A stretch of 9,795 nt of DNA. Origin: Candidatus Omnitrophota bacterium (GTDB taxonomy: Bacteria; Omnitrophota; Koll11; Gorgyraeales; Gorgyraeaceae). The stretch spans positions 1-9,795 of the forward strand of contig JAHIRR010000322.1 of assembly GCA_018818505.1 (NCBI GenBank). Direction: 5' to 3'. Both the position numbers and the translations under genes were made by a program. The notes below the pieces were generated by a model. It was not told the origin of the DNA. It did no database searches and saw only the letters and a program-made list of their open reading frames with translations. Shown piece after piece: positions 4,048 to 8,500 of this stretch. Numbering within the stretch: position 1 is the stretch's first letter; every line of letters begins with the position of its first letter.

Positions 4048-4168
4048 GGTTACGGTGACGATGCTCGTATCGGTTAGGGTTACGTCATCGGTCACGTTTT
4101 AATCTCACGTAACCCTAACCGCTGACGTAACCGTTACGGGCATCGTAACCGTAACCGTTACCGTAACC
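4048..4168. repeat. GTTAC/GTAAC long palindrome, hexamer-phased
   Basis: The inner stem is a perfect 15-bp pairing of 4071-4085 with 4107-4121 around a 21-base loop. The outer stem pairs 4048-4069 with 4135-4156: 20 Watson-Crick pairs, one G-T and one mismatch. The right arm carries 13 unpaired bases (4122-4134) and a short extension to 4168. GTTAC occurs at 4049, 4079, 4133 and 4157, and GTAAC at 4109, 4127, 4145, 4151 and 4163. Every one of these nine positions is a multiple of 6 from the others, so the element reads as about twenty hexamers in one register (GTTACG, GTGACG, GTAACC and variants). It lies in the leader of guaB3, 12 bases before the Shine-Dalgarno sequence. Its function is unknown. 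Confidence 0.85.
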
Positions 4169-4194: not shown

Positions 4195-5355
4195 ATGGGC
4201 ATGTGGGTTGGAAGAGGGAGAAAGGCGCGAAGGTGTTATGGATTTGATGAGGTAGCTCTTGTGCCAGGCTCTATTACGATAAATCCTAACGAGGTAGATA
4301 CGAGCTGGGAGCTGGCAGGCAAGAAATACAGAATACCGATACTTGCCGCTGCAATGGATGGCGTGGCGGATGTGAAGTTTGCTGTAGAGATGAGTAAACT
4401 TGGCGGCGTAGCTGTTTTAAACCTGGATGGTGTGCAGACCCGCTATGAGAATCCTGACGAGATACTTAAAAAAATAGCAAAAGCAAGTCCGCAGGAGGCC
4501 ACAAAGCTTGTGCAATCCCTTTATGTTAAACCCATAAAAGAAAAACTTATCACAAAGAGAATAAAGGAAATAAAGAAAAAGAACGCGACTGCATCTGTAA
4601 GCACTATTCCGCAGACCGCGGAGCGCTTTGGCAGGCTTGCGCAGGACGCGGGCGCGGACATATTCGTGGTCCAGTCTACAGTGATAAGCGTGCATCATAT
4701 GTCCAAGGAATATAAAGTAGTCGATTTTGCCAAGTTCATAAAATCTATGAAGATCCCTGTAATACTGGGAAATTGCGTTACGTATTCTGTTGCGCTTGAG
4801 CTGATGGAGGCCGGGGCAAGCGGGATCCTGGTTGGCATAGGCCCCGGAGCGGCCTGTACCACAAGAGGTGTCCTTGGCATAGGCGTGCCGCAAGTCACAG
4901 CTACTTCAGATACCTCGGCAGCGCGCGATTTTTATCACAAGAAGACAGGAAAATACATACCGATTATTACAGACGGCGGCATGGATTCAGGCGGAGATAT
5001 CTGCAAGGCTTTTGCCAGTGGCGCGGATGCAGTGATGGTTGGCTCCGCGTTTGCCCGGGCGCAAGAGGCGCCAGGAAAAGGATATCACTGGGGCATGGCT
5101 ACGCCGCACGCAAACCTGCCAAGAGGTACGCGGATCCGCGTGGGTACAACCGGGACACTGGAAGAGATATTACTTGGACCTGCAAAGCTCGATGATGGCT
5201 CACAAAACCTTGTCGGCGCGTTAATGACCTCAATGGGAAATGTCGGCGCAAAAGATATAAAAGAAATGCAATTGACCGAAATCATAATAGCCCCATCTAT
5301 TAAGACAGAAGGAAAACTCCTCCAGCGAGCGCAGGGGATAGGGATGGGAAAATAA
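4195..5355 (+). CDS. guaB3: GuaB3-type IMP dehydrogenase-related protein
   Basis: This is a (beta/alpha)8-barrel protein of the IMP dehydrogenase/GMP reductase superfamily, 386 residues long. It follows the GuaB3 pattern throughout: an N-terminal GRGRKARRCYGFDEVALVPG (residues 6-25), SWELAGKKYRIPILAAAMDG (37-56), the catalytic-cysteine loop GIGPGAACTTR (214-224, Cys221), and the phosphate-binding stretch DGGMDSGGDICKAFASGADA (260-279) with VMVGSAFARAQEAPG following. The usual YRGMGS flap is replaced by YHWGMATPHANLPRG (297-311), as in other GuaB3 proteins. There are no CBS (Bateman) domains, so the normal purine-nucleotide allosteric control of GuaB is absent. Cyanobacterial GuaB3 has been reported to oxidise IMP to XMP with NAD, the first committed step to GMP. 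I infer the same reaction here, though some GuaB3 proteins lack a proven activity. The gene has its own promoter and is flanked by GTTAC palindromes. Confidence 0.88.
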   Translation: MGMWVGRGRKARRCYGFDEVALVPGSITINPNEVDTSWELAGKKYRIPILAAAMDGVADVKFAVEMSKLGGVAVLNLDGVQTRYENPDEILKKIAKASPQEATKLVQSLYVKPIKEKLITKRIKEIKKKNATASVSTIPQTAERFGRLAQDAGADIFVVQSTVISVHHMSKEYKVVDFAKFIKSMKIPVILGNCVTYSVALELMEAGASGILVGIGPGAACTTRGVLGIGVPQVTATSDTSAARDFYHKKTGKYIPIITDGGMDSGGDICKAFASGADAVMVGSAFARAQEAPGKGYHWGMATPHANLPRGTRIRVGTTGTLEEILLGPAKLDDGSQNLVGALMTSMGNVGAKDIKEMQLTEIIIAPSIKTEGKLLQRAQGIGMGK

Positions 5356-5361
5356 ATGGAA

Positions 5362-5507
5362 GTTACATTTGAAGGTTACAAGAGGTTACAAGAAGTTACA
5401 GAAGGTTACAAGAGGTTACGAAAGAGTGTGGATGTCAACGCTTTTAAAGTAACTTCATGTAACATCTTGTAACATCCTGTAACTTCTTGTAACATTACGT
5501 TCGTAAC
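5362..5507. repeat. GTTAC/GTAAC long palindrome, decamer-phased
   Basis: The left arm holds GTTAC at 5362, 5375, 5385, 5395, 5405 and 5415. The right arm holds its complement GTAAC at 5449, 5459, 5469, 5479, 5489 and 5503. The inner five copies in each arm are exactly 10 bases apart, and the outermost copy sits 13 or 14 bases further out. The arms are therefore mirror images about position 5434, with a 29-base centre (5420-5448). The pentamer is invariant in all twelve copies. The 5-base linkers (AAGAG, AAGAA, AGAAG and similar) pair only in part. The element fills nearly all of the 176-base gap between guaB3 and dnaE, begins 6 bases after the guaB3 stop and ends 24 bases before the dnaE start. 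It is not a classical terminator, since no T-run follows. Confidence 0.9.
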
Positions 5508-5531
5508 CTCCATGGAAGCAAATACGCAAGC

Positions 5532-8500
5532 ATGCATCATTCCGATTTCACACACCTCCACGTCCACACGCAGTACAGCCTCCTTGATGGAGCATGCCTA
5601 ATAAAAAAACTTACTGATAGCGCAAGGCGCATGAAGATGCCTGCTGTCGCGATGACAGACCACGGCAACATGTTTGGCGCGATAGAATTCTATCAAAGCT
5701 GCGTGCAGAATGGCGTAAAACCCATCATAGGGTGTGAGGTTTACGTAGCGCCAAAGAACCGGCTCGATAAGACTGTTTACGCCGGAGGCGAGACATCAAA
5801 CCATCTTATACTCCTGGCAAAGGACGAGACAGGGTATAGAAATCTAATGAAACTTGTTACTATCGGCTATCTGGAAGGCTTTTACTATAAGCCGAGGATC
5901 GATAAGGAAATATTGTCTAAATATTCAGAAGGCCTTATAGGGCTTTCAGCCTGCCTTAAGGGCGAATGCGCGCAGCTTGCCATTAACAAAAAAGAAGAAA
6001 AAATAAAAGAGGTGGCAGGCCAGTATCGCGAGATCTTAGGCAAGGATAATTTCTATTTTGAGATCCAGAATAATTCTATCCCGGAACAGGGAACAGTAAA
6101 TACCACCCTTATAAACCTGGGCAGGGCCATGGACATAGGGATCGTTGCGACAAATGACGTGCATTACCTTAGTAAGGACAGCGCCAGGGCGCACGAGGCG
6201 CTTCTCTGTATCCAGACGCAGACTACTCTGGATGATCCAAAACACATGAAGCTGCAGACAGACCAGTTTTATTTCAAGTCACCAGAGGAGATGAAGGCGC
6301 TTTTTAAGGATGTGCCTGAGGCGATTCAAAATACCATAAGGATAACAGAACGCTGCAATCTGGAGCTGGATTTTTCAAAGACATATTTACCGCACTATGC
6401 GGTGCCCGAAGGCATGACGCGCGAAAAATACCTTAAAGACCTTTGCGAGGAAGGCTTAAAAAAGAGATATCCAGGCGTACCCTCTGAGGTAAAACAAAGA
6501 CTTGAATACGAATTGGATGTAATCAATAAATCCGGGTATACAAGCTATTTTCTGATTACGAGGGATTTTGTGAGTTTTGCAAAAGACAAAGGCATAGCAG
6601 TCGGCCCGGGCAGGGGCTCCGCGGCAGGAAGCATAGCAAGTTTCTGTCTCGGCATAACAGACATCGACCCATTGAAATACAATCTTCTTTTTGAAAGGTT
6701 CTTGAATAGAGAACGCGTTAGCATGCCTGATATTGATATAGATTTTTGCTATGAGCGAAGAGGAGAAGTGATAGATTATGTCATAAAGAAATATGGCCAG
6801 GAAAATGTAGCGCAGATCATAACATTTGGCACAATGGCGGCAAGAGGTGTCATAAGGGATGTTGGCAGGGTCATGAATGTACCTTATGCTGATGTGGACA
6901 AGATCGCCAAGATGGTACCAACGGATCTAAATATAACGCTGGACCTTGCTCTTGAACAAGAGCCAGAACTCAAAGGCCTTTACAAAAAAGATCCTATCAT
7001 AAAAGAACTCATCGATACATCAAGGCATCTCGAAGGCCTTACGCGCCACGCGTCTACTCATGCCGCGGGCGTGGTAATAAGCGAGGATGTTCTATCAAAT
7101 CACGTTCCTCTTTTTAAGACAGGAGACGGCCAGATCTCAACAGGCTATGCCATGGCCTCGCTTGAAAAGATAGGCCTTTTAAAAATGGATTTTCTGGGCT
7201 TGAGGACGCTCACAGTTATTCAGGAGGCCGTAAAGATAATAAATAGAGTAAACAATATTGAATTGAACATCGAGGATATAGCGATAGATGATCTAAAGAC
7301 ATATAAACTTTTGGGCAGGGCGCAGACAATGGGCATATTTCAGTTGGAAAGTTCAGGCATGAGGGATCTTTTGAAGAAGCTAAAGCCTGAGGAGTTTGAG
7401 GATATTGTGGCGCTCCTGGCGCTTTATAGGCCTGGCCCTATAGGAAGCGGTATGCTTGATGATTTCATGAAGCGAAAGCACGGCGAAGTGGATGTGAGGT
7501 ACGATCATCCGTTACTCGAGTCTATCTTAAAGCCGACATACGGGATCATTGTGTATCAGGAACAGGTAATGATGATTGTGTCTAAGCTGGCAGGCTTTTC
7601 TCTTGCCCAGGCAGACCTCCTGCGCCGCGCGATAGGCAAGAAGACGCCTGAGATAATGGACCAGCAGCGCCGCGCGTTTATTGAAGGCGCTGTGAAGAAC
7701 AGGATCGACAGGCGCATTGCCGAGAAGATCTTTAATTTCATAGAGCATTTTGCGGGGTATGGTTTTAATAAGAGCCATTCTGCCGCGTACGCGATGATCT
7801 CCTACAGGACCGCGTTTTTAAAGGCGAATTACCCTGTTGAATTTATGGCCGCTCTTCTAACAAGTGAAAAAGATAACACAGATAAGATAGTCGAGTACAT
7901 AAATGAGGCGGAAGAGATGGGCATGAAGATCTTGCCGCCTGATGTAAATGAGAGTTTTGCTAATTTTACAATGGTTGAAAAGAACACTATACGCTTTGGC
8001 CTGGGAGCTGTTAAAAATGTCGGTCAGACTGCTATAAATTCTATTATTGAGGCAAGAGAGGAGCACGGTGCCTTTAAGTCTTTGTGCGAGTTTTGCGAGT
8101 ATACGGACTCGCGCCTGGTAAATAAGAAGGTGATGGAGAGCCTTATAAAGTGCGGCGCGTTTGATAGTCTTGGTTTTAAAAGGGCACAGCTCATGGTTAT
8201 GCTTTCAAGGGCAATGGATATAGCGAGCTCCATACAGAAGGAAAAAACATCTGGACAGATGCTTCTTTTTAATGACAGGAAAATGGAAGACGCTCCGCCG
8301 GATATAAAGGAGTGGCCAGAGGGCCAGCTCTTGCATTTTGAGAAAGAGATGATTGGTTTTTACATAACAGGACATCCTCTTGCCAAGTACGAGAGGGAGC
8401 TTAATGAATACTCTACAGCTAATAGCAGCGAACTTAAGGATTTAAAGGATGGCCAAAAGGTCTGGTTTGGCGGCATAATCAATAAGGTTAAGAGCACTGT

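Follow-up and report, generated by a model that had tools for sequence, protein, structure and literature searches.

A mirror array of GTTAC decamers between guaB3 and dnaE in a Candidatus Omnitrophota genome, probably a gene-less copy of a dispersed IVS-like element

Why should twelve exact copies of one pentamer stand in two facing rows between two protein-coding genes? The window, by which we mean the whole stretch of DNA that was analysed, comprises 9,795 nt of contig JAHIRR010000322.1 (assembly GCA_018818505.1) from a Candidatus Omnitrophota bacterium. The upstream neighbor of the array is a gene for a GuaB3-family protein that ends at 5355 (TIGR01304, 455.8 bits with a cut-off of 342.1), and the downstream neighbor encodes DNA polymerase III alpha, starting at 5532 (NF005298). 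The closest relatives of this GuaB3 protein (best four) belong to Candidatus Omnitrophota MAGs and show 87–88% identity.

The array can be sub-divided into a left arm, a loop, and a right arm. The left arm (5362–5419, forward strand) possesses six GTTAC cores, which start at 5362, 5375, 5385, 5395, 5405, and 5415 (spacings of 13, 10, 10, 10, and 10); its first linker is 8 nt long and is followed by the purine-rich 5-nt linkers AAGAG, AAGAA, AGAAG, and AAGAG. The right arm (5449–5507, reverse strand) possesses six GTAAC cores with pyrimidine-rich linkers, starting at 5449, 5459, 5469, 5479, 5489, and 5503 (spacings of 10, 10, 10, 10, and 14). Between them lies a loop of 29 nt (5420–5448, no strand) without an ORF, in the place where, by comparison, the gene-bearing relatives carry the ORF of a four-helix-bundle protein. 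The twelve exact copies, mostly at a 10-base pitch, are centred on 5434–5435, and the two arms of about 58 nt each, 29 nt apart, are 81% complementary over 48 nt. Counting of positions and profile matches reproduced everything that the first-pass annotation had described here, that is, the copies, their spacings, the centre, and the guaB3 and dnaE neighbors.

One way of assessing such regularity is to shuffle the surrounding sequence. Four 10-base GTTAC-GTTAC steps on one strand were seen in 0 of 2000 dinucleotide shuffles of the 500 nt round the array, the shuffle maximum being one, and the forward strand of the array folds at −70.5 kcal/mol with a z of −9.35. At the array edges, a 7-nt direct repeat, ATGGAAG, can be read from the forward strand at 5356–5362, where its last base is also the first of the outermost GTTAC, and again at 5512–5518. 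It is possibly a target-site duplication, though such a pair is partly expected anyway because the linkers are purine-rich.

The first-pass annotation had held that a sole array, missing from relatives, would more likely be a local tandem amplification with no function. Among 285 genomes of the phylum, 20 contain GTTAC-N5-GTTAC-N5-GTTAC, and none contains the reversed pattern; the genomes, which are given G numbers here, are mostly MAG-derived. A looser pattern that allows gaps of 1–8 between GTTAC copies was found in 10 of 21 genomes, with three matches in all for its reversed control, and a strict detector of inverted arrays, which misses degenerate ones, reported 10 arrays in the 1.13 Mb of 80 loci plus the window and none in shuffles. 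When every 5-mer was tallied at pitches 6–15 in G024, G203, and G202, three genomes picked because of their GTTAC arrays, GTTAC came out as the top core at the 10-bp pitch in each, with other cores dominating pitches 7–9. The linkers of these arrays are alike within a genome and different between genomes (GAGAG in G024, TTAAA in G202, and TAATG or TAATA in G203).

A relative, G013, has a copy that matches the window array at 74% over query positions 17–155 (E 1.8e-19), with linkers in common and the same odd spacer of 9 nt at an outlying unit. This copy sits at the junction of two ORFs, both glycosyltransferase-like by eye, one of which it overlaps at the 3′ end. The array in the window is therefore not alone, given the 20 genomes and this copy. 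G024 has several copies that vary in their number of complete units, and other repeat arrays adjoin some of them.

Two unusual cases were seen among these arrays. The decamers enter coding sequence at the 3′ ends of ORFs at L168, 9102–9126 (G008), and at L099, about 1498–1629 (G013), where they appear to supply C-terminal residues. In G202, loci L222–L226 hold composite dispersed repeats, in which an array of GCGTATC-like heptamers is joined to an array of GTTACTTAAR decamers, in most of them followed by AAGTAAAC; the repeat of L226 is tandemly duplicated.

What, then, is kept in these arrays? When 416 units that adjoin exact GTTAC pairs are aligned, for the selection of which a match to GTTAC was not required, the core positions carry 0.56–0.90 bits per position versus 0.17–0.42 bits at linker positions. 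In the two-armed elements (10 of 67, each arm having three or more exact units), facing linkers match at 0.63 versus 0.64 when shuffled (P 0.79), so that linker pairing as the constraint is not supported. Since conservation is stronger in the cores than in the linkers, and linkers opposite each other match like shuffled ones, it is GTTAC, more than pairing, that is kept, as the first-pass annotation had supposed. Its remark that the pentamer never varies holds inside the window array but not across the family, where GTTGC, GTTTC, GTTGG, and others are found.

At two loci, G177:C15 and G030:C70, a small gene is flanked left and right by GTTAC arms; the G030 copy contains a single in-frame stop. 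For the protein from G177, profile searches return PF05635 (23S_rRNA_IVP) and TIGR02436 (four helix bundle protein), and the single PDB sequence found for it at E of 1 or less is Xanthomonas XCC0516, 2gsc (E 2.2e-4). PF05635 gave 97 matches in 22 of 30 genomes, of which 74 (the other 23 were left out), together with seven members of the same clade from other genomes, make up the sample of 81 IVPs used below; L418, L419, and L431–L433 are discussed outside that sample. At least three copies of a shared inverted 5-mer were present in the 200-nt flanks of 41 of the 81 IVPs, the other 40 being below three, versus 2 of 53 control ORFs from the same loci and 12 of 727 from larger regions; in direct orientation, that number of copies was reached for eight of the 81. 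Periodic flanks (z of at least 3) were found for 72 of 81 IVPs versus 155 of 727 control ORFs. By eye, most of the elements have arm letters of their own.

A co-occurring DNA-binding protein or transposase had been suggested, and a four-helix-bundle IVP does exist beside the arrays, as a putative binder of them. The window array has the inverted arms of GTTAC-type 10-bp units that mark what we call the decamer-armed IVP element, with L337–L340 as the loci for comparison; the genes of these elements make up the decamer clade. A gene of this clade was found in only four of the 20 array-bearing genomes, where its arms are partly the very arrays that were counted. A search for PF05635 in 17 of these 20 genomes found no match in G024, G197, and G008, nor did a search of the array-bearing G013; the absence from these four may reflect incompleteness or may be real.

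Plasmids show the arrangement as well. Inverted short-tandem flanks were recognized by eye at seven of the eight plasmid IVPs read, from 36 records with a match; the eight comprised seven cyanobacterial plasmids and one of Gemmatirosa. The exact-word score of plasmid locus L430 is only 1, and the arrays round the IVP of L427, a Pseudanabaena plasmid, are direct, not inverted. In G306, L418 shows the arm pattern and L419 is without a clear array. On the cyanobacterial plasmids of L424, L427, and L428, IVP genes lie inside CRISPR-Cas operons with short-repeat arrays around them, twice in the order cas6-IVP-cas4 and once as cas10-IVP-cmr3. IVP genes in cas loci have been listed before (PMC3936711), and insertion of an element may explain them. 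Viral contigs searched with one IVP as query returned no relative, and the heptamer-type protein of L309 has a distant relative in Avd of the diversity-generating retroelements (NF033474 and PF22296, both below cut-off).

Unit length can be set against the protein tree. When 285 genomes were searched with the GTTAC-flanked protein as query, 10 of them yielded a total of 11 decamer-clade members, selected by protein only. Their flanks have pitch 10 in 10 of the 11 and pitch 9 in the remaining one (L339); among the other 70 IVPs, pitch 7 was called in 55 and pitch 8 in 11, and shuffled flanks reached z of at least 3 in 0 of 81. The 11 form one clade with an SH-aLRT of 100, in a tree in which 26 of 78 inner branches are unresolved. 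Pitch labels require 11 changes on this tree versus a shuffled mean of 21, with 0 of 300 shuffles as few; with the decamer clade taken out, they require nine versus 10.5, with 19 of 300 as few. The signal therefore rests mainly on one event, because without that clade the labels hardly follow the tree. With this limit, the length of the repeat unit seems, from the sequences compared, to go with the branch of the IVP protein.

The letters of the arms behave differently. A GTT-type core (GTTAC, GTTGG, or GTTYC) was recognized by eye in nine of the 11 decamer-clade members, with GTAGTAGGGG-type units in L346 and L347. Over all IVPs, arm letters and protein identity show no overall correlation (Mantel rho 0.0002, 154 of 300 permutations as high), and sharing of letters is found mainly between IVPs above about 60% identity. 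The sister IVPs L319 and L335 of G198 have a common GTCAC core at pitches of 8 and 7, respectively, so that the core was kept and the unit length changed. When the search for the clade was carried to other phylum sets, it was found in two of 44 genomes, at three places, and in 0 of nine elsewhere, where an empty answer shows little. Of these new relatives, L431 has GTTAC at pitch 10 upstream and a called pitch of 13 downstream, L432 has pitch 10 on both sides with another core, and in the truncated L433, GTTAC copies are spaced 13 and 11 when inspected by eye, with a program call of 6.

Arrays without a gene are seen in G202, where four gene-less hairpins match both arms of a decamer-clade IVP element (L217:7974–8097, L218:4104–4218, L219:17119–17318, and L221:5793–5901). 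In each, the match to the upstream arm precedes that to the downstream arm, and the space between them is far too small for an IVP gene. Some arm matches cross over because the arms resemble each other, and shuffled copies of the same sequences gave no match. All four hairpins thus show what defines a MITE, that is, an internal deletion with ends like those of the gene-bearing element. Elsewhere in G202, one arm or only its outer part is matched, for example, at L217:11086–11250 and in L222, L223, L224, and L226. The window array would stand to a putative gene-bearing parent as these shells stand to the IVP element.

Orientation distinguishes the gene from the arms. Both neighbors are visible for 76 of the 81 IVPs, of which 66 point along both, three against both, and seven lie in other gaps; in the 69 codirectional gaps, this amounts to 66 co-oriented and three opposed. 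One-armed GTTAC arrays in codirectional gaps are without strand bias (20 sense and 18 antisense), and three of the four G202 shells lie in such gaps, one of the three co-oriented. Since gene-less arrays are without bias, the bias seems to belong to the IVP gene and not to insertion, as expected if the gene relies on the operon transcript. Insertion at the RNA level, an idea that the co-orientation had raised, was set aside on the same ground.

There are signs of purifying selection on the IVP gene. Six of 13 pairs gave a dN/dS value, between 0.04 and 0.13, with dS above 2 in four of the six; the two pairs with dS below 2 (0.28 and 1.31) have ratios of 0.107 and 0.132. Of the other seven pairs, one contained a stop and was left out, and six yielded no value.

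Taken together, we consider that the window array is probably a gene-less, internally deleted and MITE-like, copy of a dispersed IVS-like element with decamer arms. IVS elements without an ORF exist. The architecture of the elements, their dispersal, the link between clade and unit, the sharing of arms in G202, and the signs of selection are all demonstrated in this analysis; the remainder of the scheme is a proposal. The full element would consist of an arm of head-to-tail short units, a gene for a 23S-rRNA-IVP/S23 four-helix-bundle protein, and the arm again in inverted orientation. The subclass in the window would have 10-bp GTTAC-type units and be tied to one protein clade, with other clades using mostly 7-bp and some 8-bp units. 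A solved S23/IVP homologue is a pentamer (PMC4990558), and a multimeric IVP may read the arms unit by unit, in which case core and pitch would be kept while the linkers drift. The full element would be expressed from the host operon transcript, and its long stem in the mRNA would be cut by RNase III, like the IVS in rRNA, so that insertion between the genes of an operon would be tolerated. The element is presumed to be mobile and moved by some enzyme.

If the array served its neighbors, one might expect it to be kept between guaB3 and dnaE. In 16 relatives, the gap between these genes ranges from 6 to 155 nt. It measures 6–22 nt in L003, L007, L008, L009, and L012 and 31 nt, unstructured, in L001; in the other ten relatives, it is 65–155 nt long, and most of these gaps fold well. 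A word inverted at least twice per strand is present in eight of the ten longer gaps, for example, CAGAA in L002, TGCGT in L004, ACTTG in L006, and TAAGC in L014, among others, and GTTAC is never that word. The gap of L015 contains a one-armed GTTAC run with a 7-bp pitch. As a position for inserts, the gap is tolerated and not conserved, and the effect of the insert on guaB3 and dnaE is most likely close to neutral. A regulatory site of these two genes is not supported, because relatives have either a short gap or other inserts.

This bears on the readings in which the array works in place. The array might be a cooperative binding site, where a chromosome-structuring or regulatory protein would bind GTTAC from one side of the helix and a symmetric complex would be held by the two facing arms, acting on guaB3 and dnaE or on the chromosome. 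The exact 10-bp steps agree with this, as does a core better conserved than linkers that match like shuffled ones. Tandem 7- and 8-mers of Geobacter metallireducens, which also come in pairs, were likewise interpreted by the authors of that study as possible IHF/HU sites (PMC2700814). The gap in relatives, however, is without a GTTAC mirror array or has other inserts, and helical phasing, which the first-pass annotation had offered as the reason for the pitch, is not supported, since the pitch is 7 or 8 bp in sister elements built alike and about 9 in one related class. Placement gives no help either: of 52 GTTAC arrays with both neighbors visible, 44 lie in codirectional gaps, four in convergent gaps, three in divergent gaps, and one inside an ORF, which is about the background rate (555 of 622 adjacent ORF pairs are on the same strand). 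We regard a binding site as unlikely.

The same placement is, by this comparison, not terminator-like, with convergent gaps not enriched, and this weakens the other suggestion of the first-pass annotation, a large RNA hairpin at the 3′ end of guaB3 that would act locally as a terminator, attenuator, or mRNA-stability element. Structurally, such a hairpin is plausible, given the very stable fold of the array and the good folding of most of the longer gaps in relatives. Against it, a terminator and promoter scan of 5200–5700 found none, and no short G+C-rich stem with a T run; an Rfam scan of the window returned 0 matches at gathering score; facing linkers pair no better than shuffled ones; and six relatives have only the short gaps mentioned earlier, all of them unstructured. 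A local RNA role is accordingly quite improbable. The REP/BIME elements, moved by a REP-associated tyrosine transposase (Y1_Tnp), deserve mention since REPs commonly occur as pairs of opposite orientation (PMC3733652), PF01797 is present in 19 of 21 genomes searched, and two arrays lie less than 2 kb from a Y1_Tnp gene (G154:C2 and G177:C15). In both cases, though, another gene lies between transposase and array, the 10-bp GTTAC pair is in none of the regions examined round transposase genes of G202 and G203 (L301–L305), and the window array consists of two long tandem arms round a loop, not a 20–40 bp palindrome. We regard a REP/BIME origin as very unlikely. None of the six main window ORFs scanned is a Y1_Tnp gene, though such genes are common elsewhere in the genomes of relatives. 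A local and neutral amplification, through slippage during replication and switching of template, would account for the variation in unit number between the copies in G024, but it is already disfavoured and, in our estimate, scarcely credible: core and pitch recur in the 20 genomes with no reversed pattern, linkers are common to unrelated loci of different species, and array pitch is linked to protein clade.

The window contains two further inverted arrays, absent from the first-pass annotation, which should be distinguished from the GTTAC decamers. One, at 4049–4167 upstream of guaB3, has GTTACG-type units of mixed orientation, many of them 6 nt or a multiple of 6 apart, and is part of a fold of −74.2 kcal/mol. 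The other, at 2187–2373, has CACAGAG units at pitch 9; it includes a perfect 18-nt inverted repeat, ACCACAGAGAACACAGAG, at 2187–2204 and 2356–2373, with further CACAGAG units. In relatives, PF13366 (PDDEXK_3) genes have arrays like it on their flanks (ACCACGAAG, ACCACAGAG, and others). In a sample of 19 loci out of 45 listed matches, from which mostly fragments were left out, pitch 9 was called in eight of the 19, and at least three inverted words were present in nine of the 18 with flanks long enough versus one of 16 controls. The array at 2187–2373 likely represents the shell of a second class of element.

How does the proposed element compare with known systems? The nearest is the intervening sequence (IVS) with S23p in the 23S rRNA gene of Coxiella burnetii, which has complementary ends that form a long stem, as in the window array, and a four-helix-bundle ORF inside, like the full element, whereas the window array is without an ORF (PMC4990558). 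In its 5′ part, the Coxiella IVS has short tandem repeats whose number varies between strains, namely (GACAGAT)n, with two or three heptamers and a degenerate one 5′ of the start of S23p (PMC4990558). These heptamers tie the rRNA elements to the intergenic elements described here. The IVS is excised by RNase III, which has a site at the first repeat, and, according to the authors, S23p is unlikely to be produced in vivo, and its reading frame is in decay (PMC4990558). In contrast, the window array lies between the protein genes guaB3 and dnaE and not in a 23S rRNA helix, its units are 10-bp GTTAC units and not heptamers, and some relatives have several dispersed copies per genome.

Other short-repeat families share parts of this pattern. 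The GGGAATC repeats of Xanthomonas and the GGGGA(C/T)T repeats of Nostoc are also short units in intergenic tandem arrays, with 70 and 75 inverted array pairs in two Xanthomonas genomes, but they are heptamers and are discussed as G-quadruplex repeats (PMC4692102); the terms S23, four helix, and intervening are absent from the main text of that paper. In G. metallireducens, the octamer/heptamer "global regulator binding sites" and the GGACCGG elements resemble the array in being tandem, paired on opposite strands at variable distance, and multicopy, yet they have other units, and a link to a four-helix bundle is absent from the portion of the text consulted (PMC2700814). The TAACTGA heptamers of the Beggiatoaceae are likewise multicopy short tandem intergenic units; unlike the array, they are direct repeats, with a single indirect set in the genome that was analysed, lie mostly near start codons, and have been proposed as sites of a post-transcriptional regulator (PMC4679880). 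REP/REPIN sequences with their RAYT are dispersed, intergenic, and palindromic, like the array (PMC3733652), which, however, differs in build, as noted earlier, and has no adjoining RAYT in the loci examined.

A wider proposal can be put forward tentatively, and we would give it somewhat less than an even chance. S23/IVP proteins may be the partners that read the arms of mobile elements, and these elements may form a large class, so far unrecognised, that occurs in several phyla; protein clades would fix the unit length (7, 8, or 10 bp), with a fast turnover of the letters. Members of this class, or its gene-less shells, would then include the GTTAC mirror array, the canonical rRNA IVS, and the paired heptamers known from Geobacter and Xanthomonas. 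In the open-licence literature, supplements excluded, we found no paper that links the S23/IVP clade to repeat length.

The function of S23/IVP and the origin of the IVS were called unclear more than 25 years after discovery (PMC4990558). The rule that relates clade to repeat length leads to a direct biochemical test, in which a decamer-clade protein is paired with decamer arms and a heptamer-clade protein with heptamer arms, and it could unite several short-repeat families that have been described separately. For those who annotate the genomes of uncultured bacteria, many strongly folding "intergenic hairpins" in operons would then be the shells of elements and not regulators.
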